Shown here: piece after piece, positions 12,311 through 59,990 of the stretch
Numbering within the stretch: the first letter of the stretch is position 1
Layout of the letters: each line of letters begins with the position of its first letter
Origin: Planctomycetota bacterium
Lineage (GTDB): Bacteria > Planctomycetota > Phycisphaerae > Phycisphaerales > Phycisphaeraceae
Length of the DNA: 64,000 nucleotides
Assembly (NCBI GenBank): GCA_024279865.1
Contig: JAJRRC010000037.1
Coordinates: forward strand, 1 to 64,000
Reading direction: 5' to 3'
Position numbers and translations under genes: made by a program
Notes under the pieces: model-generated
Databases searched by the model: none
What the model saw: the letters and a program-made list of their open reading frames with translations, nothing else
What the model was told of the DNA's origin: nothing

Positions 12311-12349
12311 CGGGGGTGCCGGGGGTGCCGGGGGTGCCGGGGGTGGATT
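12311..12349 (+). repeat. G-tract tandem repeat, lpxA-purB gap
   Basis: Four 9-bp units CGGGGGTGC in tandem, intergenic between the convergent lpxA and purB. Member of the dispersed G-tract family. The rest of this 263-bp gap (12144-12406) shows no gene. Confidence 0.8.
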
Positions 12350-14008: not shown

Positions 14009-14671
14009 ATGATGAAATCAGATGAAAACCGACAGGCACGCGACGCAGCCACGGGCGACGGCATTGCCCTGGCGAAATTGCTGCAAGCCTTTGAGCATCG
14101 GGTTTACAGCGTGTGCTATCGCATGGTCAATCATCGTGAGGATGCACTGGACCTTGCCCAGCAGACTTTGCTCAAAGTCATCGAACATATCCAATCGTTC
14201 CAAGGCCAAAGCAGTATTTCGACATGGATCATCCGAATAGCGATGAATGTCTCTATTTCACACCTACGCAAACGAAAAATTCGCAAAGCATCCAGCCTCG
14301 ACACAGCCTCCAATGAAACAAATACTTCCTTTGCTGGACGATTGGTCGATCATCGGGAACCAATGCCCGACTCAAACGTCCAACAGCAAGAGGAGATCCA
14401 ACAATTGCACGTGGCCATGGAACAGATCGATGATGATTTTCGCAGTGTGCTGATTCTGCGGGATTTACAGCAAATGGACTATCGCCAAATGGGCGAAGTG
14501 CTCAACTTGCCCCCCGGCACGGTGAAGAGCCGTCTGTTCCGCGCCCGATTGGCCTTAAGACATGAAATGTTAAAACTCGATTCCCCCCCCCCGGAATCGT
14601 CCCCGGAATCTCCCCCAAAATTACCGCCGGAGTCTGCCTCTGCTCCGTCCACTGACAAGGCAACATCATGA
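14009..14671 (+). CDS. ECF-type RNA polymerase sigma factor
   Basis: 220-residue sigma-70-family factor with region 2 (about 25-95: [36 protein letters not shown]) and region 4 (about 140-195: [31 protein letters not shown] helix-turn-helix). The C-terminal ~25 residues are a Ser/Pro/Glu tail encoded by a C-rich copy of the dispersed repeat. Its stop overlaps the start of the next gene by four bases (ATGA), marking a sigma/anti-sigma pair. The target regulon cannot be told from sequence; the ATG at 14012 is an alternative start. Confidence 0.9.
14581..14632 (-). repeat. G-tract repeat encoding sigma-factor tail
   Basis: C-rich on the plus strand (runs of nine C, then CCCCGGAATC units), i.e. 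G-rich on the minus strand. It encodes the Ser-Pro-Glu tail of the sigma factor in frame, adding unstructured residues after region 4. Confidence 0.75.
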
Positions 14672-17763: not shown

Positions 17764-19241
17764 AAGATTTCACCATGTGAACAACAAAAGACGTAGCGGG
17801 TGTCTGTGCCATACGGATGCACTTGGCCGATGCACTTTATATTCGGATATGTGGTGGCTTTGTGCAACCATTGATCGACGTGCCAAAGCTCTTCGCCCCG
17901 TGGTGCGGTGAGGCAGGCTTTGCCTTCATTAACCGAAACGTCGAACAAGAGGGTGTGTGATTGTTCAGAAATTTTGTGGAGAATCTCTTCGCCCATGGCC
18001 ATGCCTTGCTGGTCGATGACCCATTGGATCATCGAAAAACAAAGGGTGACATCCACCTTGCCTACTTCGTCAATGAGGTCCGGCGTTAAGGACGTTTGCT
18101 TCCATTGGATCGGCACGTTGTACAGTTTGCTAACCTGTTTGGAAATGTTTTGATAATCCTCACGCAGTTCCACGGCCGTCACGTCTGCGCCGCGTTTGGC
18201 GAGGCTAAAGCTGTAGAATCCCAGATTACAACCAAGGTCCAAAATCCGTTTGCCTTGAACCGGGCTCGCTGCTTTGAGGATCATTTGTAAACGTTGGTAG
18301 GGCGTTTGGGATTGAACTTGTGTGCTGAGGTGGCGAAACTCGTAGAAGGGTAAGGGGTGATAAATATCTGCCCAGGTTTCGAGTTTGGAGGATTTGATTT
18401 TTGCAATGAGTTGGGCAATGGATTCTGCATTGGCATCATTGGGTTGACCGAGCTGGTCCAACGCGTCAAAGCTTTTTTGATAGGCAGAGATGGGCCAAAC
18501 GTGTTTTGAAATTTTTCGAAATTGAGCCCGGATTTCATTGTCAAAACCGAGAAAGACGTCTGCATGGGTGTGGCCCAAGGCCAGCAAGGCTGCCAGGCGG
18601 TGTTTGCCATTGATGACCATGAACTGGCCATCTACCGTATGGACCAAGCTGATCGCGCCGTAGTGGCCAGGGCGGTAGCCTTGTTGATCGATTTGGTTGA
18701 TGAGGTAGATAAATTGCTGGCATCGCATGTGCGCGTCACGCGACCCATGACAGGGGAACGGGAGTCGGCCTTGCAATGCCAATTGAAAATATTCCGTCGT
18801 ACAATAATCAACCCCCCCCCCGGAAATTCCCCCGGCCCCCGGAAGTTCCCCGGAAGTGTTGATGGGTTTATTGCCTATTTCTTCAGACGCGCCCTTGGGC
18901 GCAGGTTTACTTGCGGCTATTTTATCGTTGCTTTTTTTACGACTCCCAAGATACGCTTTGGCGAAAGCGAGGTGGGGGCATTGCGAAAAATCTTTGCCTG
19001 AGAAGCTCCAACGGTCTGGTAGGAAATCCATGGTGTGTTGGATTGGTCTGGCCGTGAGATCGATTTTGGTGAGTGGACTGCGTATGTTTTGATAGCAGAT
19101 GCCTTGGCTGATATCGAGCATGTCATAGCGGCCGCGTCCGAGGTGAACGAGATTGCGTCCACGGCGGATGAGAAGGTTTGTCAAACTTTTGGATCGACGA
19201 ACCCCACGACCGATGATGCGTTTTGGAAAACTTGCGGGCAA
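17760..19241 (-). CDS. Methyltransferase with ParB/Srx-like N-terminal half
   Basis: 493 residues. The middle part (about 185-235) has a ParB/sulfiredoxin-like nucleotide-binding look ([33 protein letters not shown]). The C-terminal ~180 residues are a SAM methyltransferase ([19 protein letters not shown] as motif I, ADVTAVE). A Gly-rich stretch (about residues 129-145) is encoded by the G-tract repeat. TTG start at 19241, three bases after the flippase stop. Placed between a flippase and a GT2, it likely modifies a surface glycan or glycolipid; the substrate is unknown. Confidence 0.65.
18811..18858 (-). repeat. G-tract repeat inside methyltransferase gene
   Basis: C-rich on plus, G-rich on the coding minus strand; TTCCCCGG/CCCCCGG units encode [14 protein letters not shown] in frame. 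Sits between an N-terminal positively charged region and the ParB-like part. Confidence 0.78.
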
Positions 19242-20729: not shown

Positions 20730-21200
20730 AACAAACCTCAGAAAACACGAGGGGGAACAGGTCCAAACGCATAATCCCCCGGTGGTCAAACCGGGTCAAT
20801 CAGGAAAAAACCGGGGGTATGATGATTTTATCGGCTATTTAGGCGTGAGTCCTAAGCGAAGAAGCTCGGTGGTTGGGATGATTGAAAGCGTTTTGCGGCC
20901 ATTGGTCGCGGGTCTGTCACTGGGGGAGAGCATGAACGGGGTTGCCAAGGCAATTGCGGATCATACGCTTTAGAACCTCATCGAACCATGCGTCGTGGGT
21001 GAAAAGAATCCGACCCTTCAGAAGACTTCAGGGTTCGGCGTTGTGATAGCTGCAAGCAAACGTATGCCAAGGGCAAGCCCGAAGGATTGACGGGAGAGAG
21101 AAGCGATACCCAAAAAATGGCTGGAAGGTGAAGGTCCGGGAAGAATACCGAAGGCTAAAAGCCAGCCCGAGGGAAAACTTCCGGGGGTCCGGGGGGGGGG
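20730..21200. other. Gene-poor region with repeats
   Basis: About 470 bp with no convincing gene. Contents: a partial family-2 repeat (20839-20868), a 31-codon open frame (20878-20973, MIESVLRPLVAGLSLGES...) that could be a small peptide or the remnant of a lost gene, a full reverse-orientation family-2 repeat (21006-21047), and a G-tract run at 21178-21201. Together these look like a repeat-rich scar. Confidence 0.45.
21006..21047 (-). repeat. Dispersed hairpin repeat (family 2), copy d
   Basis: Reverse orientation: GAATCCGACCCTTCAG... to ...GGCGTTGTGAT. On the minus strand it reads ATCACAACGCCGAACCC with a CTTCAG-type self-complementary centre. Flanks match copy a while the stem sequence differs. 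Confidence 0.65.
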
Positions 21201-24684: not shown

Positions 24685-24784
24685 TGGGGGGAGTTGCCGG
24701 GGGTTGCCTTGAGGGCGGGGGTACTGCCGGGGGTTGCCGGGGGTTACCGGGGGTTGCCGGGGGTTACCGGGGGTGTTGGCCGGG
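24685..24784 (+). repeat. G-tract tandem array downstream of rsfS
   Basis: The largest array in the window: five consecutive 10-bp units of CCGGGGGTTG/CCGGGGGTTA (24728-24777) plus degenerate copies to the left. The rsfS stop codon (24764-24766 on the minus strand) lies inside it, so the last RsfS residues are repeat-encoded. Unit length is 10 bp here versus 9 bp in coding copies. Confidence 0.85.
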
Positions 24785-25213
24785 GACTTTGACTCTTGGG
24801 GCATCGTTCCAGAGCATTTCCAGATCATAATGGGCCCGGGTGGGTGGGTCGAACAGATGAACCACCACGTCCACAAAATCGACGACCAGCCAGGCTGCAT
24901 CAGCATCGACATCAATGCCCAGGCGATCTAGGTCATGGGTCTGAGCGACTTCCTTAAGTTCATCAGCGACCGCTTTGATCTGGCGGTTACTGGTGCCTGA
25001 GGCAATCAAAATGTAATCGGTGATCTGGCAGATATTTCGCACATCAAAAAGAACAATGTCTTCGCAATGACGGTCTTGAAGCAGTTTGGCTGCTTCAATT
25101 GAAAAGGCCAAAAGTGTTTGCTGGTACGGGGAATCATCCTTGCGATTCTGGACTTCCAGAATGCGTGATTCAGAACTCGGTACGTTGCCCAATGCGGAGG
25201 TGTCTCGATCCAT
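24764..25213 (-). CDS. rsfS: Ribosome silencing factor RsfS
   Basis: 149-residue RsfS/Iojap protein, which binds L14 and blocks subunit joining under nutrient limitation. The fold-defining segments are seen: AAKLLQDRHCEDIVLFDVRNICQITDYILIASGTSNRQIKAVADEL and DADAAWLVVDFVDVVVHLFDPPTRAHYDLEMLW. Start ATG 25213; the frame is open 57 codons upstream but runs through a G-tract repeat encoding Gly-rich sequence, so that part is unlikely to be native. Flanked by G-tract arrays on both sides, in opposite orientations. Confidence 0.92.
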   Translation of the reverse strand: MDRDTSALGNVPSSESRILEVQNRKDDSPYQQTLLAFSIEAAKLLQDRHCEDIVLFDVRNICQITDYILIASGTSNRQIKAVADELKEVAQTHDLDRLGIDVDADAAWLVVDFVDVVVHLFDPPTRAHYDLEMLWNDAPRVKVPGQHPR

Positions 25214-25249: not shown

Positions 25250-25320
25250 ACGCCCCCCGGAAACGCCCCCCGGAAGCCCCCCGGAAGTACCCCCGGTAAT
25301 CTCCCCGGAAAACCCTCTGG
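25250..25320 (-). repeat. G-tract array upstream of rsfS
   Basis: Six or so C-rich units (CGCCCCCCGGAAA, GCCCCCCGGAAGT and similar) on plus, hence G-rich in the rsfS transcript leader. Inverted relative to the array at 24685-24784, so the two could pair across the rsfS message. Confidence 0.8.
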
Positions 25321-37331: not shown

Positions 37332-38346
37332 GCCCCCCCCGGAACTTCCCCCGCCCCCGGAAGTCCCCGCCGGTTTCCCCCAATTTTTTAAAGAGGGCGA
37401 TCATTGGATCTGCCGGGGCGGTGGTGGGGTCATCACATTGCCATTGAAGCGTGGTGTCCGCGAGCATGATGCGAGCTGCTACTTTCATCGGTGACAAAGA
37501 AAAACTGACAGCAGCTTGTGGGTCGGGTTGTTCATCAATGGCAATGCGTTGACAGATGGAGGGAGCTTGAAGTTTTCCCACATGAATGAGTAGATCAACC
37601 GCTTGCCGAGCGAGAAGGGTTTGCAAAGGTGGGCAAGATGTTGGCGTCGCTTTGGCAAAATCAATGCCGCCGAGCTGAGGGTTGATGCCAGTGATCCAGA
37701 GCAGTTGGTCGATCAAGCCTCGGAAGTTCCCCCGGAAGTTCCGGGGGAACTTTGGTTTGGCTTTGTCGGGTTGTTCCCAGACGGCCACGCGATGCTGGGT
37801 TTGCATGGCCCCTGCATAACGATGGGCTGCACTTAGAGCTTGAGGCGTGGTTTGTGCATCGCATTCAAGAATCAAATATAAATTAAAGGGGTCTGACCCC
37901 TTTTTAATATCTGACCCCGCATGACGGTGTGCCGCACTGAGGGTTTGAGGAGTCGTTTGTGTATTGCATTCAAGGATTAGATAATCCGAATTTAAGGTGT
38001 CGGGTATTTTTTCGAGGTTTTGCACGTCACCGAGTGTTTGGATTTTTTGAACGCAAGGGGATTCCTTTGGAAGCTTCAGGGGGGAGGCTTGGTGCCAAAC
38101 TTTTTGACCTCGGGTGATGCAGAGGTCTGTTGGCAAGGCAATGCGAGCCTTGCAAAGTTGGGCTGCGGTGATGGCAGCTTGTTGAGCTTCAAGGGTTAAA
38201 TGGTCGAGGCCCACAAAGGTGGGAGCAATCGATTGGGCCAGTAGATTGCAGGCTTGGGTGAGTGCGTCGTTGACGGACGCTGATTTGCCGTGAATCATCG
38301 CGGCAAAGGGTAAGTCTGATTGTTGATTTGCAGCTTCTATAGCCAT
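37306..38346 (-). CDS. fhcB: Formylmethanofuran dehydrogenase subunit B homologue
   Basis: 346-residue FhcB-like subunit, shorter than catalytic FmdB/FwdB and without visible Fe-S or molybdopterin-ligand Cys motifs, as in bacterial hydrolase complexes. Seen: LTLEAQQAAITAAQLCKARIALP, QLLWITGINPQLGGIDFAKATP, DLLIHVGKLQAPSI. It carries an internal duplication (residues 122-144 and 157-179, 19 of 23 identical) separated by a palindromic REP-like insertion, and two G-tract inserts (about 199-211 and the C-terminal tail). Its function may be affected by these insertions. Confidence 0.75.
   Translation of the reverse strand: MAIEAANQQSDLPFAAMIHGKSASVNDALTQACNLLAQSIAPTFVGLDHLTLEAQQAAITAAQLCKARIALPTDLCITRGQKVWHQASPLKLPKESPCVQKIQTLGDVQNLEKIPDTLNSDYLILECNTQTTPQTLSAAHRHAGSDIKKGSDPFNLYLILECDAQTTPQALSAAHRYAGAMQTQHRVAVWEQPDKAKPKFPRNFRGNFRGLIDQLLWITGINPQLGGIDFAKATPTSCPPLQTLLARQAVDLLIHVGKLQAPSICQRIAIDEQPDPQAAVSFSLSPMKVAARIMLADTTLQWQCDDPTTAPADPMIALFKKLGETGGDFRGRGKFRGGHDDHRTAS
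37333..37380 (-). repeat. G-tract repeat at fhcB/fhcA junction
   Basis: C-rich on plus (eight C, GGAACTTCCCCCGCCCCCGG, GGAAGTCCCC). It encodes the Gly/Arg-rich end of FhcB and provides the G-rich leader directly before the fhcA ATG, where a Shine-Dalgarno site would be expected. Confidence 0.8.
37721..37754. repeat. Palindromic G-tract repeat inside fhcB
   Basis: CGGAAGTTCCCCCGGAAGTT followed by CCGGGGGAACTTT: the two arms (AAGTTCCCCCGG and CCGGGGGAACTT) are a perfect inverted repeat. It encodes FPRNFRGNFRG in frame. This is the only clear palindromic form of the family. Confidence 0.75.
37810..37983 (-). repeat. Imperfect tandem duplication in fhcB with central REP
   Basis: Two copies of a 69-bp segment (37915-37983 and 37810-37878), about 75-80% identical by eye. 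They are separated by a palindrome AAAGGGGTC-T-GACCCCTTT (37885-37903). The REP-like palindrome is of the widespread GGGGTCTGACCCC type and encodes IKKGSDPFN in frame. Confidence 0.75.
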
Positions 38347-49527: not shown

Positions 49528-50532
49528 TTAGGCGCGCGGATCAAACGTCGAAACTTCGCGTAGTTGTTCTAAAAGCGTTCGTTGTTCGTCGGTGAGTTCT
49601 TTGGGTACGACGATCTTTGTGCGAATCACGAGATGGCCTCGTGAGGGGGCTGGATCGTCGCAGCCGTCGTCTTTGCATTTTTGGCTGCCACAGTTTTTGG
49701 CTTTGAGCTTGGTGGTGAGGCCTTTGTTTTTGAGTCGAAGTTTGCTGCCGCTGGAAGTGCCCGGCGGGATGGTGATGGTGACCTCGCCGTCGAGGGTTTG
49801 CACAGGGATTTTGGCTCCCAAGGCCGCCTCGGTCACGGTCAAAGGCAATTCGAGTGTGAGGTTTACGCCATCGACTTCAAAGCGGCTATGTGGTGCGATG
49901 GTAATTTTAAGGATGATATCTGCGCCGTGGTTGCCTTGTCCTTTGATTCGAATTTTTGAGCTGTCGGTGGTTCCTGCTGGGATTTTGACATCAATTTGTC
50001 TGTTTCCTGTGGGGCCTTGCACGGTGAGCTGACGGCTGCCGCCGTGGAAGATTTCTTCTAAGGTCAGCGTGAGATCCACTTCAGAATTGGCTGGTCTGCG
50101 AGGCTGTTGGTGTTGTCCGGGGGTTCCGGGGGTTCCGGGGTGGCCGTTTGCTTGATTGGCAAAGAGGTTTTCAAAGAAGTCGCTGAATTGACCGCCGCCG
50201 TCCATTCGGAAGCCACCTTGCTGGCCGTCCATGCCGTTGAATGAAAAGTTCGATCCGCCAAAGCCGTTGCCGCCAAAACCTGGCGGTGGGGTGAAGTCTT
50301 GGCCTGCTTGCCAGTTTTCGCCGAGTTGGTCGTAGCGTTGTCGTTTTTTGGGGTCTTTGAGGACTTCGTAGGCTTCATTGATTTGTTTGAACTTATCTAC
50401 AGCCGCTGCGTCTTTATTCACATCGGGGTGGTATTTGCGAGCCCGGAGACGAAACGCATTTTGAATTTTCTTGGCGGACGCATCACGCCCGACGCCAAGG
50501 GTTTTGTAATAATCTTCAAATTTAACAGCCAT
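49528..50532 (-). CDS. DnaJ-like co-chaperone (CbpA type)
   Basis: 334 residues: J domain with HPD at 35-37, Gly/Phe-rich linker (about 80-130), and two C-terminal substrate-binding domains (from about 150). The classical DnaJ zinc-finger domain is absent; instead a short Cys cluster (Cys281, 286, 291) is inserted late in the second C-terminal domain. The linker contains PGTPGTPG from a G-tract repeat. ATG 50532; co-transcribed with clpB. Confidence 0.9.
50116..50144 (+). repeat. G-tract repeat inside dnaJ-like gene
   Basis: Three 9-bp CCGGGGGTT-type units (50117-50143). In the coding (minus) direction C-rich, encoding the Pro-Gly-Thr-Pro-Gly segment at the J-domain/C-terminal-domain boundary. 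Confidence 0.78.
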
Positions 50533-53802: not shown

Positions 53803-54896
53803 ATAATCATCTGATGCGAATTTTGGCGGTGGTGTTGGCGGTGTGTTATGTGGTGCCGGGGGTTGGGGCTGCGTCGGAGATTAAACCGGTGGTACGTCCG
53901 GGGGCACTTTCAGGGGCGGGGGAAACTTCCCCTGTGTTGTTTGGTACGTTTAAGGCCAATGACAGCTTTCAAGTTCAGATGAATCTCTCTGCGGAGAGTC
54001 AAGAGATGCTTTCGAATATCACGTGGCTTCCTCGTTCATTTGAAGTTGTCAGTGTGGAGGATGATCGTGCTGCGGAGGCCTTGGTGACGTTTGATTCACC
54101 TCGTCCCAGTGGCAATCCGATTAATGATCGGGTGGTCATGGAGTGGTATGCAGCTCGTAATCACGAAGGGAAAATCATTGAAGCGCCTGCGATGTTGGTG
54201 TTGCATATTCTTGATGGAAAGATGCGTGTGGCAAGGTTGATTGCTCGGTCCTTTTCATTTCAGGGGATTCATGCTTTTGTGATGCATTTGCCTTATTACG
54301 GGTTGCGTCGTTCTGGCAAGCAGGGGAAGGATCCTGAGAATGTTTTGAATCGTATCCAGCAAGGGATTTCTGATGCGAGGCGTGGGCGTGATGCGATTGC
54401 CTCGTTGCCGTATGTCCAGCATGGTTCTATTGGGATTCAGGGGACGAGCCTTGGCAGCTTTGTGACCTCCGTTGCCGCGGGCATGGATCGTGCGTTTGAC
54501 CCGGTGTTTATGATTTTGGGGGGAGCGGACATTCATGGCATTTTGCGGTCTGCCATGGGCGAAGCTCAAGACATACGCGAGGCCCTCGAAAAAAACGGGT
54601 ATACCAATGAGAAGATCAAGCGGTTGGCATGGAAGATTGAACCTTCACGGTTGGCACATCGCTTGAACCCAAATCGCACATGGCTGTTTTCGGCAAAGGA
54701 CGATCAGGTTGTCCCTGCTGCCAATGCTCGTGTTTTGGCGAAGGCAGCCCACTTAACGCCCGCTCATCATATTTGGTTGTCAGGGAATCATTACACTTGT
54801 GCCATTCATTTGCCCCGGCTGATTACGCAGATGGTGCAAATTATCAAAGCTCCACTTCCGGGATCGACAGCCGTTGGAAGTACCGTTTCGGATTGA
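53799..54896 (+). CDS. Exported alpha/beta hydrolase
   Basis: 365 residues. Signal peptide (VLAVCYVVPGVGAAS), then a Gly/Ser patch encoded by a G-tract, then an alpha/beta hydrolase fold: Ser217 in the GTSLGS elbow, acid candidates Asp301/Asp302 in AKDDQVVP, and His331 in GNHYT. Similar to S9/dienelactone-hydrolase-like enzymes. Coupled to the preceding acyltransferase gene (ATGA overlap), suggesting joint action on one substrate. Confidence 0.78.
   Translation: MNNHLMRILAVVLAVCYVVPGVGAASEIKPVVRPGALSGAGETSPVLFGTFKANDSFQVQMNLSAESQEMLSNITWLPRSFEVVSVEDDRAAEALVTFDSPRPSGNPINDRVVMEWYAARNHEGKIIEAPAMLVLHILDGKMRVARLIARSFSFQGIHAFVMHLPYYGLRRSGKQGKDPENVLNRIQQGISDARRGRDAIASLPYVQHGSIGIQGTSLGSFVTSVAAGMDRAFDPVFMILGGADIHGILRSAMGEAQDIREALEKNGYTNEKIKRLAWKIEPSRLAHRLNPNRTWLFSAKDDQVVPAANARVLAKAAHLTPAHHIWLSGNHYTCAIHLPRLITQMVQIIKAPLPGSTAVGSTVSD
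53897..53933 (+). repeat. G-tract repeat after signal peptide of hydrolase
   Basis: GTCCGGGGGCACTTTCAGGG followed by GCGGGGGAAACTTCCCC, encoding PGALSGAGETS directly after the predicted signal peptide cleavage region. Confidence 0.65.
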
Positions 54897-56189: not shown

Positions 56190-58709
56190 TTAATCCATGG
56201 TGTCATTCTGGGAATTTTGATGACGACCTAGCAGCCATCGCCACTCGGGCGCTTTGAATAGCCACGCGCTGAAGAGATAAACCACCATGCCGACCATGAC
56301 CAAAACCGCCAACAAAATAGCACTGTGAATGCGTGACAGGTCTGCCATGTCATACCGATTGAGAATCGGGAGCAAGGCCAGCGTCATGATCAGCGTGAGC
56401 AAGATAGAGCGTCCCCAAGACCAGAGAACTTTGTCATCAAGGGGCAGAGCAAGATGCCGGCGCATGGCCCGGATCAATAAGAACGCGCCCCAGATGGCGC
56501 ACAACGCGGTGGACCAAGCGAGTCCCGCCACGCCCATGTACCAGATCATGATGCAGTTTAAGGTAAGGTTCAAAAAGACATTGGTGACGGTGATTTTGAG
56601 AGGTGTGCGGACATCATCCAACGCATAAAACGCGCGTGTGAGCACATGGGTCATGGAATAGGCCCAGATGGCGATGGCGTAGCCGATGAGAATGGTTGAA
56701 ACACGTTGAGCGTCTTGGAGATCAAAGCGGCCGTATTGGTAGATCAGCCGGGTTAGTGGCAAGCGGACAAGGATGAGGCCGACGCTTGCGGGGAGGCCGA
56801 CGAAGACGGTGAGACGCAGGCCGTGATGAAGGATGGTGGCAAAATGTTTTCGATGTCCTGCGGCCGCATGGGCCAGGGCCGGGAAGATGGCCGTTGCAAT
56901 GGCGATGCCGAACACGCCCAGGGGGAATTGATAGAGGCGTTGGGACCAGTTCAGTGCCGCCACCGCACCGGGTTCGATTGGGTAGAGAAGTTCTTTTCCT
57001 GCGATGACTGCCAGAACGGTTTCCCCTTCTTTGGGGCTGAGGCTGTAGCTGATGATCGAGTCCATGGCCGCATTGAGTTGAAAGACTGCCAAGCCGATGA
57101 GCATGGGGAGCATGGTTTTTGCCACTGCCCACAAGTTGGGACCTGTTCCTTGAAAGTTCCGTGTGAAAGGTTGTTGTCTGGCGGCAGCGATCCATTGCCA
57201 TGCCAATTGACCGGCGCCTGCCACGAGGACCGCCAAGCCGATGAAGTAAACCCCTTGCTCGGGTGTGTATTGCCACAATGCAAGGGAGGCTGCTGAGATG
57301 ATGGCCAGGTTCAGAAGGATCGGTGCTGCTGCTGGTGGCCCGAAATGGTGGTGAACTTGAAGCACGCCGCCGAGCAGTGCAACCGCACAGATCAAAGGCA
57401 TGTAAGGCAGCATCAGCATCATCAGTTTGATCGCGGTGACGGTGGTATCCGACCATGTGCCGTAGTGTTGGACGGCCAGGAGAATCCCTTCGCCGATCAG
57501 GACGACCATGCCCAGCCCCACCAATAAAAGCGAGATACAAGCCCATGCCAATCGTTGAGCCGCCACGGGGTCAGTTTTGCGAAGTTGACTGTATTTGGGG
57601 ATAAACGCAGCGGAGAGTGCGCCTTCGCCAAAGAGTCTGCGAAATAGATGGGGAATGAGAAAGCCCATGTGAAACGCATCGGCAAGGTGGCCGAGCCCCA
57701 GGGTGGCCGCTAGGACCGCGTCGCGTACCAGGCCAGTCATGCGTGAGAGCAACGTCAGTCCGCCGACGGTACGAGCATGGCGAACGAAGGATACGGGTGC
57801 TTGGAGGGGGGCGTTTTTTGGGGATGCCGGGGGGGATGCCGGGGGAACTTCCGGGGGCGAGGTTTTTTTGGAAACTTTCGGCGTATGTGCGATTGCCAAG
57901 AGGTATCCGATGCCTGTAAGCAGGGCGAGTAAAACGCCGATCTCGTGGGCAATGAGATCGCTCCATTCAAAGCCTCGTCCGATTTTTTGTTGAACGAGTT
58001 CAAGGATCGGGGCGGCTGCAATTTGTAAAACAATCGCTAGCGCAATGCCCATTTTCGGTCGAGAGCGACCCAATAAACGCATGGCTGCGAAGAGCCAGAC
58101 CGCGCTAAAAGCAGCGAACAAATGTAGCAAATGATCCCCACGCATTTCCACACGGTCAGCAAATGTCGGTCCCATCGGCAGGCCAATCGGGACATCAAAT
58201 GAAAGGCTCGGCATCAAGGCCATCAACAAGCCCATCGGCAAAAATAAAATAAAGATAAGCCTCGCCAACAGCACATTGTCACAACGCTCGGTCTGGTGAT
58301 CGCGTACGCGGGCCGCCATCAACCACATGGCGATACAGATGCCGATCATGCTGCACAATAGATTTGTGGTAGAGAAGGGTTGGTCAAATAAGATTTGTGC
58401 GTACTCGCTGCAATAAGCATAGGCAGCAGCAACCCAGACACTGGCGATTAAGTTCAACCGAAATTGCCCCGCACGTCCCAACGGCAACGACCAGAAAAGC
58501 AGGCCTTGTAAGATGCCTAAGGCCAGTACGTAAAACGGCTTGGTCAGATACCACTCACCGAGGCCATGGGCTTGGAGTTGAACATGAAGGCCTTGCCAAT
58601 GGGTGCAAATCATCAGGGCCGGCCAATAGATGAGTAACGCCAAACGCGCCCCAAGCGGATCGTGGCGATCATATGCCTGGCATTGGGTTAAGTCGCGTTG
58701 AGACGTCAT
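56190..58709 (-). CDS. murJ: VanZ-like domain fused to MurJ lipid II flippase
   Basis: 839 residues. Residues 1-275 are membrane segments with VanZ-like halves (SEYAQILFDQPFSTTNLLCSMIG and GDHLLHLFAAFSAVWL ... ELVQQKIGRGFEWSDLIAHEIGVLLAL). A Pro-rich linker (279-304) is encoded by a G-tract repeat. Residues 305-839 are MurJ (ARTVGGLTLLSRMTGLVRDAVLAATLG..., IWAYSMTHVLTRAFYALDDVRTPLKI), the lipid II flippase. Start ATG 58709 directly after a family-3 repeat. The VanZ-MurJ join is unusual and may be mediated by the repeat. Confidence 0.88.
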   Translation of the reverse strand: MTSQRDLTQCQAYDRHDPLGARLALLIYWPALMICTHWQGLHVQLQAHGLGEWYLTKPFYVLALGILQGLLFWSLPLGRAGQFRLNLIASVWVAAAYAYCSEYAQILFDQPFSTTNLLCSMIGICIAMWLMAARVRDHQTERCDNVLLARLIFILFLPMGLLMALMPSLSFDVPIGLPMGPTFADRVEMRGDHLLHLFAAFSAVWLFAAMRLLGRSRPKMGIALAIVLQIAAAPILELVQQKIGRGFEWSDLIAHEIGVLLALLTGIGYLLAIAHTPKVSKKTSPPEVPPASPPASPKNAPLQAPVSFVRHARTVGGLTLLSRMTGLVRDAVLAATLGLGHLADAFHMGFLIPHLFRRLFGEGALSAAFIPKYSQLRKTDPVAAQRLAWACISLLLVGLGMVVLIGEGILLAVQHYGTWSDTTVTAIKLMMLMLPYMPLICAVALLGGVLQVHHHFGPPAAAPILLNLAIISAASLALWQYTPEQGVYFIGLAVLVAGAGQLAWQWIAAARQQPFTRNFQGTGPNLWAVAKTMLPMLIGLAVFQLNAAMDSIISYSLSPKEGETVLAVIAGKELLYPIEPGAVAALNWSQRLYQFPLGVFGIAIATAIFPALAHAAAGHRKHFATILHHGLRLTVFVGLPASVGLILVRLPLTRLIYQYGRFDLQDAQRVSTILIGYAIAIWAYSMTHVLTRAFYALDDVRTPLKITVTNVFLNLTLNCIMIWYMGVAGLAWSTALCAIWGAFLLIRAMRRHLALPLDDKVLWSWGRSILLTLIMTLALLPILNRYDMADLSRIHSAILLAVLVMVGMVVYLFSAWLFKAPEWRWLLGRHQNSQNDTMD
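57803..57870 (+). repeat. G-tract repeat encoding VanZ-MurJ linker
   Basis: GGAGGGGGGCG, GGGGATGCC, GGGGGGGATGCC, GGGGGAACTTCCGGGGGCGA in series. In the coding direction C-rich, encoding KKTSPPEVPPASPPASPKNAPL, the interdomain linker. Confidence 0.82.
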
Positions 58710-58900: not shown

Positions 58901-59926
58901 TTACGAGGCAGATGCCGTGGGCGTTGACAGGATCGACTTCGCGAGCCGTTCGTAATCTCGAGCGCCCGCACAATGGGGAGCATATTCAAAAATTGTTTTG
59001 CCAAAGCTAGGCGACTCGGCGAGCTTAATATTGCGGCGAATGGGCGGCTCATAAATCACCGCGTCAGCCCAAGGCACATCTTGACCGCGGCCAGCTTCTA
59101 AAAAATTCATCAGATCCGCCACCACTTCACTGGCGAGAATCGTATTGGCTTCGTGCATACAAAGAACCACGCCTCCCACACGCAGCTTGGGATTGAATCC
59201 CTGCTGAATCAGTTGGATCGTTTCAAAGAGCTTGGATAATCCCTGCAATGCTAAAAAATGTGCCTGCAAAGGAACCACAACTTCCCGAGCCAATGTCAGA
59301 GCATTGATCGCGAGCAATCCCAAGCTAGGTGGACAGTCGATAATAATATAGTCCGGCCGATCCGGGGTCTGGAGCAAGGCTTCAACTTTGTCCGCCAACA
59401 CCCGCTGGGCTTGGCCGGTGATGACCTTGGGAGCCAATTCTGCTTCCACCCCCGCAAGATTCACTTGGGCTGGGATGATCGAAAGGTTCGAGCCAACTTC
59501 GCGGATGACCTCTTGCACGGTGACCTCATCCTCAGCAAGCAATTGATACAAATTTAAATCCGTGGATGCTAGTTCAAGCCCGAAATGTAAACTCAGATGG
59601 GCTTGAGGGTCCATGTCAATGACAAGCACTTTTTGATCGAGATAGGTCAGCCCCGCGGCAAGATTGGCCGTGGTGGTGGTTTTACCCACGCCACCTTTTT
59701 GATTCATGACCGCCAAAATACGTGGAGACGCTGCTGCAACATTTGTTTGCACAGGCATTCGCTCAGAAATTTGAGGGGGGATGGCTGGCGAGACTTCGGG
59801 AACTGCGTTTTGTGTGACTTGCGGGGCTACTTGCGGGGTTACTTCCTGGGTGCTTCCGGGGGCCGGGGGGGAATCCGGGGGGGCGGGGGTGTTTGGAGAG
59901 TTTGGGTGCATGGGCAATTCATTCAT
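58901..59926 (-). CDS. parA: ParA family chromosome partitioning ATPase
   Basis: 341 residues. An unusual ~65-residue Pro/Gln/Val-rich N-terminal extension (partly G-tract encoded) precedes the ParA core: deviant Walker A KGGVGKT (77-83), DMDPQAHLSL, and IIIDCPPSLGLLAINAL. ParA ATPases position the origin region together with ParB-parS. ATG 59926 is chosen; ATG 59911 would shorten the extension. No parB gene follows here, but a parS-like site lies about 0.77 kb upstream. Confidence 0.9.
   Translation of the reverse strand: MNELPMHPNSPNTPAPPDSPPAPGSTQEVTPQVAPQVTQNAVPEVSPAIPPQISERMPVQTNVAAASPRILAVMNQKGGVGKTTTTANLAAGLTYLDQKVLVIDMDPQAHLSLHFGLELASTDLNLYQLLAEDEVTVQEVIREVGSNLSIIPAQVNLAGVEAELAPKVITGQAQRVLADKVEALLQTPDRPDYIIIDCPPSLGLLAINALTLAREVVVPLQAHFLALQGLSKLFETIQLIQQGFNPKLRVGGVVLCMHEANTILASEVVADLMNFLEAGRGQDVPWADAVIYEPPIRRNIKLAESPSFGKTIFEYAPHCAGARDYERLAKSILSTPTASAS
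59855..59890 (+). repeat. G-tract repeat encoding ParA N-terminal extension
   Basis: CTTCCGGGGGCCGGGGGGGA, ATCCGGGGGGGCGGGGGTG. In the coding direction C-rich, encoding TPAPPDSPPAPGS. Confidence 0.78.
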
Positions 59927-59990
59927 GATAGACGTAGTATACCGTTCACTTGGGCGATGCAACTTGAACCCGGTGGGTTCGGACAAGCTC

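Follow-up and report, generated by a model that had tools for sequence, protein, structure and literature searches.

The gene investigated here raises the question of how two VanZ-like membrane units came to be joined to the lipid II flippase MurJ within a single protein, whether a dispersed G-tract repeat made this connection, and what VanZ might do next to a flippase. It is located in the window, i.e., the whole analyzed stretch of 64,000 nucleotides from a contig of a planctomycetal Phycisphaeraceae genome, and encodes from N- to C-terminus a first VanZ unit (VanZ-A), a second one (VanZ-B), a disordered Pro-rich linker and a complete MurJ. The features are listed in Table 1. The AlphaFold2 model of the 839-residue protein (mean pLDDT 84.7) contains two separate four-helix units in front of MurJ, and within the linker the pLDDT falls below 50 at residues 277–297 and 299–301. 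A sequence-only reading of this DNA had described two VanZ-like halves N-terminal to MurJ and a Pro-rich linker encoded by the G-tract repeat. The halves were borne out by orthologues, by Hidden Markov Models (HMMs) built for this family and by the two four-helix units of the model, and a repeat cluster does sit in the linker. The observation of a VanZ-MurJ fusion with a repeat-encoded linker is confirmed.

Table 1. Coordinates of the fusion gene, its parts, the upstream gene and the G-tract clusters in the window.
Feature	Position	Strand	Remarks
VanZ-VanZ-MurJ fusion gene	56190..58709	-	839 aa + stop; ORF, family matches, AlphaFold2 model
VanZ-A	58305..58658	-	residues 18–135, four TM helices
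VanZ-B	57888..58277	-	residues 145–274, four TM helices
Pro-rich linker	57795..57887	-	residues 275–305; predicted cytoplasmic
MurJ lipid II flippase domain	56220..57794	-	residues 306–830
ParA-type ATPase gene	58901..59986	-	directly upstream of fusion, same strand
G-tract cluster in linker, TTCCGGGGG-type dispersed repeat	57806..57857	+	antisense in linker; encodes residues 285–302
TTCCGGGGG-type clusters in window, part 1	874–920, 12312–12343, 14583–14616, 18812–18851, 21183–21200, 24717–24785		
TTCCGGGGG-type clusters in window, part 2	25253–25306, 37333–37381, 50119–50140, 53900–53922, 57806–57857, 59858–59889		

Judged by family, fold and matching arginines, the MurJ part is a complete lipid II flippase domain. 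Residues 333–781 match Pfam PF03023 with 309.9 bits (cut-off 27.4), residues 309–824 match the NCBIfam equivalog TIGR01695 with 336.2 bits (cut-off 235.55), and the best solved fold match of the domain is 7waw (Foldseek E 4.4e-18). R323, R329, D330, R357 and R591 of the fusion align with R18, R24, D25, R52 and R270 of Escherichia coli MurJ, whose four arginines are, in the numbering assumed here, presumably of functional importance. While the full domain above the curated cut-offs, the fold and the arginines are shared with the MurJ/MviN proteins, the fusion differs from them by 305 additional N-terminal residues, which comprise eight predicted TM helices and the linker. It carries the sole MurJ detected in this genome, which is 95.7% complete.

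For the N-terminal part, the Pfam model of VanZ (PF04892) yielded 18.5 bits in two stretches of the window protein, which is below the cut-off of 30.1. Five of the eight scanned orthologues exceeded this cut-off (G030 51.9, G015 46.6, G008 33.0, G034 32.4, and G037 30.7 bits) and the remaining three were slightly below it (28.8–28.9 bits). HMMs built from the N-terminal parts of the family, with the window sequence itself among the training rows, matched the window with 4.4e-35 for VanZ-A and 3.6e-43 for VanZ-B. Because orthologues pass the cut-off, the family HMMs match and the model shows two four-helix units, the N-terminus can be assigned to VanZ, by descent only. The N-terminal part modelled alone was of middling quality (pLDDT 71.2); Foldseek found no match in the PDB with E < 0.001 for it, and comparisons with human PSS1 (9b4e, Z 6.6, rmsd 3.7 over 79 residues) and SAA3 (6pxz, Z 5.0, rmsd 4.2 over 86 residues) by VIA-align 2 gave Z values similar to those of unrelated rows. 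GlpG was considered as a solved relative of VanZ by sequence and rejected, as its E of 0.29 or worse is at chance level; nothing else matched.

With the VanZ family of the lipocone superfamily (PF04892; PMC12419801) the units have in common the arrangement of four helices and the polar motifs in the second, third and fourth helix. Measured against the motifs published there, DKxxH on helix 2 resembles VanZ-2, and ExxQ and DxxxN resemble VanZ-1. The difference is that here two tandem copies precede MurJ and that the first copy is degenerate in the window. In the duplicated VanZ described in the covered part of that paper, from a different operon of betaproteobacteria, it is the C-terminal copy which is inactive, whereas in the window the N-terminal copy is degenerate.

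Six of the eight motif positions of the window's VanZ-A have been changed and are now occupied by T56, Y60, S101, Q110, N116, and S120; only E102 and Q105 are retained. VanZ-B retains H196, E237, Q240, R245, and D251. The VanZ-A motif residues H60, E102, Q105, R110, and D116 are kept in all 44 other aligned proteins (the alignment holds 45 of 47 proteins, L075 and G016 being left out, the latter as it gave no HMM match). Relative-rate counts for VanZ-A, window-only against relative-only changes, were 17:5, 16:4, 16:8, and 20:4, with uncorrected p-values of 0.017, 0.012, 0.15, and 0.0015, so that an excess of change in the window lineage with p < 0.05 was obtained in three of four overlapping comparisons. 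The same comparisons gave no excess for VanZ-B or MurJ. VanZ-A has decayed in the window lineage and is now probably a scaffold, and VanZ-B alone retains the motif.

This decay bears on the alternative that the VanZ modules altogether are non-catalytic and act on MurJ by stabilizing, positioning or gating it in the membrane, without modifying any lipid. The gene has stayed intact while most motif residues of its VanZ-A were lost, this unit evolves faster than VanZ-B or MurJ in the four overlapping comparisons, and G016 likewise has a degenerate VanZ, all of which would suit such a role. Against it, none of the 44 other aligned proteins has lost the five polar residues of VanZ-A, and the E and Q of VanZ-B are kept in 18 of 19 two-copy proteins, whereas a pure scaffold would have no need of these residues. 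We consider the purely structural role unlikely, but VanZ-B could be non-catalytic.

The distribution of the fusion was determined by a search in the genome of the window and 60 relatives, which gave a match in 58 of the 61. Sorting by HMM resulted in 30 genomes with a fusion, 14 with VanZ adjacent to MurJ, two with VanZ within about 2 kb, ten without VanZ and two loci cut by a contig end. Of the 30 fused genomes, 17 carry one VanZ copy and 13 carry two. Of the 34 genomes of the family to which the window belongs, 25 were fused, seven had adjacent genes, one had VanZ at about 1 kb and one was cut. An overlap of one base between the stop codon of vanZ and the start of murJ, taken as the first in-frame start codon, occurs in G008, G022, G029, G042, G046, and G054.

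A search of named genomes with the window N-terminus alone found no match. With the alignment of the family N-terminal parts 80 loci were found, which are assigned to Phycisphaerales, Phycisphaeraceae and other Planctomycetota (one or two are labelled only as bacterium) and some of which are records of genomes already among the 61. VanZ was fused in 17 of them, adjacent in 24, near in 21 and absent in 11, and seven loci were cut. Two of the named loci, L074 (UBA7800) and L075 (NORP295), are about 60% identical to the window in the best segment and keep the order VanZ-VanZ-MurJ. Outside Phycisphaerales, 50 loci were examined in 46 genomes, and VanZ stood beside MurJ in none of them; the 46 come from a sample of 148 genomes of the phylum, 140 of which gave a MurJ match, and for 26 of the 46 a flank of only 1.5 kb was covered. 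Among the 62 named loci in which VanZ is fused to MurJ, adjacent to it or near it, 51 have a ParA gene upstream, compared with one of the 11 without VanZ. The corresponding numbers for the window's genome and its relatives were 23 of 46 and one of 10; 15 of these 46 loci have little room upstream. A murJ without neighboring VanZ usually also lacks ParA.

For the history of the gene a MurJ tree of 65 rows was calculated by a quick method with SH-aLRT support only, from which rows below 420 residues and L075, whose MurJ frame lies in two pieces, were excluded; ten of the 80 named loci are included. The window clusters with L074, L076, and G030 on a starred branch with a support of 100, and all of these are two-copy fusions. 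Mapped on this tree, the fused state requires at least nine changes (at least five of them forced by starred branches), the number of VanZ copies nine (three forced) and the linkage of VanZ and MurJ four, and these counts do not distinguish gains from losses. The simplest reading is that vanZ stood beside murJ and that the two were joined and split several times, the VanZ part with its one or two four-helix modules presumably being fused to MurJ and separated from it repeatedly. As the unfused order parA-vanZ-murJ is common in the order, the fusion needs only the loss of the stop/start between overlapping genes. Very probably, vanZ and murJ were neighbors in an ancestral order parA-vanZ-murJ of Phycisphaerales and became fused there long ago.

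The sequence-only reading had suggested another origin, namely that expansion or recombination of the G-tract repeats joined vanZ to murJ. The repeat is indeed abundant. In the window 12 clusters were counted, compared with a mean of 0.28 and a maximum of 2 in 50 first-order Markov shuffles, and the pattern TTCCGGGGGN{2,8}CCGGGGG occurs 312 times in the genome against one occurrence of the reversed control. Nine of the 12 clusters are located wholly within predicted ORFs of at least 200 amino acids, mostly with a Gly-rich or Pro-rich reading. The cluster of the fusion gene, which reads PPEVPPASPPASPKNAP and places its C-tracts on the sense strand, falls exactly within the linker, which speaks for an origin from the repeat. 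Against this origin, L074 and L075 share the VanZ-VanZ-MurJ fusion, and their linkers, when examined, were free of the repeat. A G/C-tract cluster is absent from 27 of the 30 fused linkers, being present in those of the window, G030 and G026; eight of the 30 fused genomes (G003, G017, G024, G027, G031, G032, G034, and G053) have no copy of the pattern at all; and relatives have separate vanZ genes which already adjoin murJ. Among the relatives the pattern is patchy, with 433 copies in G015 and none in many. The orientation also speaks against it: the cluster is antisense in the window, with a Pro-rich product, and sense in G030 (SGGGASGGG) and in G026 (Gly-rich), which is why the insertions look independent. 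The proposed creation of the fusion by the repeat is refuted by these data, and we regard it as extremely improbable. The sequence-only reading had itself named such a finding, the fusion in species lacking the repeat, as its refutation. That the repeat entered the linker after the fusion, in the lineage of the window, is well supported.

In L076, with a MurJ that matches the one of G030 at 513 of 523 residues (98% identity), the linker contains a single repeat unit at the place where G030 has an expanded cluster. Both linkers additionally contain a palindrome, in G030 GCACCGGATNNNNATCCGGTGC, which is unrelated to the G-tract repeat. With up to two mismatches it gave 125 matches on each strand of G030, corresponding to about 125 places since a palindrome matches both strands, and none in the genome of the window. 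Different kinds of repeats are hence found in the linker across the relatives, so that it takes up repeats of various kinds. As a disordered tether, predicted to be cytoplasmic, it would tolerate small dispersed repeats provided that the frame is kept. The Rickettsia palindromic elements are known as small dispersed repeats which lie in frame within protein genes. The present case is alike in that respect; it differs in that the inserts, a G-tract repeat and also an unrelated palindrome in the case of G030, lie in a disordered linker in Planctomycetota. Dispersed repeats can, accordingly, come to occupy the linker of a fusion protein although they had no part in making the fusion.

What the VanZ units might contribute depends on the side of the membrane which they face. 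The predicted topology places eight helices before MurJ. The short loops predicted to be inside, three in number, contain 23.5, 19.5, and 30.3 Lys and Arg per 100 residues; for the predicted outer loops the values are 5.6, 20.0, 9.8, and 14.7. As there are eight helices, the inner loops are rich in Lys/Arg and the motifs are located at the opposite helix ends, the prediction is that the active sites lie on the outer side, to which MurJ delivers lipid II. Two features count against this topology: the predicted inner linker shows no enrichment in Lys/Arg (10.3 per 100 residues, with a net value of −0.15 per sequence), and such residues abound in the outer loop of VanZ-A that connects helix 3 to helix 4 and contains the conserved motif Arg. 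In the lipocone paper, 14 of 17 membrane lipocone families are described as open to the outer face (PMC12419801).

MurJ would carry lipid II across the membrane, from its inner leaflet to the outer one, where the VanZ active site, predicted to be open to the outer face, would adjoin the exit of the flippase. There, VanZ may perform head-group chemistry on the delivered lipid and cleave either lipid II or the spent undecaprenyl-pyrophosphate carrier, and such cleavage would set the amount of exposed lipid II; in the window species this would leave the chemistry to VanZ-B. This chemistry, whether it acts on lipid II after flipping or on the carrier, is put forward tentatively, at slightly less than even confidence. 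A cleavage of flipped lipid II by VanZ is also proposed in the lipocone paper (PMC12419801), and no VanZ activity on lipid II was found in the portion of the VanZ and lipocone literature covered. Cells with VanZ bind less labelled teicoplanin (PMC7146870), which in our interpretation of the covered part of that work fits less exposed lipid II. MurJ does not need VanZ everywhere, as ten of the 58 matched relatives have no VanZ beside MurJ, and its own role may be relaxed in this phylum, since a murJ deletion mutant could be obtained in Planctopirus limnophila (PMC10632474). The functional hint of the sequence-only reading, that a cell-wall context makes sense of the fusion, is plausible. The old fusion and the head-group chemistry combined form the best explanation of the locus, which as a whole we hold to be somewhat more probable than its opposite.

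The lowered teicoplanin binding in the tested species (PMC7146870) could also mean that the fusion chiefly defends the cell against environmental lipoglycopeptides or other compounds binding lipid II. VanZ is, however, linked across the order to a housekeeping flippase and to parA, and according to the covered part of PMC12419801 resistance contexts account for no more than a small share of the VanZ-1 genes, which makes defence as the main purpose very unlikely.

An MviN/MATE flippase is named among the chief neighbors and fusion partners of VanZ (PMC12419801); VanZ-flippase fusions as a class are thus already published. No description of the two-copy VanZ-MurJ fusion, of the decay of one copy or of its repeat-tolerant linker was present among the matches listed for the VanZ, MurJ and planctomycete literature, supplementary tables aside. 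The present analysis adds the variant with two copies, the decay on one side of it, the course of its history and a linker that tolerates repeats. The role of VanZ in the resistance operon is so far unknown according to the lipocone paper (PMC12419801). A flippase fusion kept through repeated joining and splitting, with one copy decayed, would tie VanZ to lipid II of the outer leaflet, and the fusion offers one protein in which this idea can be tested. It is conceivable, if somewhat less likely than not in its entirety, that the VanZ of Phycisphaerales is a dedicated partner of the flippase at outer-leaflet lipid II, repeatedly fused to it, with one of two VanZ active sites being lost within an intact gene in the window lineage and with a linker that is a hotspot for in-frame insertion of unrelated repeats. 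If so, a core cell-wall protein keeps having its linker rewritten by repeats of the genome.

Two further observations concern VanZ genes of other make-up. The genome of the window contains a second, standalone VanZ gene (L001, G000:C49:21930-22178) above the Pfam cut-off. Upstream of murJ, VanZ with further TM helices and CxxC pairs was found in L085 (1632-2771), L103 (1288-2412), L099, and L081. Such a unit is joined to MurJ in L090, where the whole unit is fused, and in L108 and L115, which are known by length and HMM match only; the CxxC pairs of L085, L103, L099, L081, and L090 resemble zinc ribbons as judged by eye.
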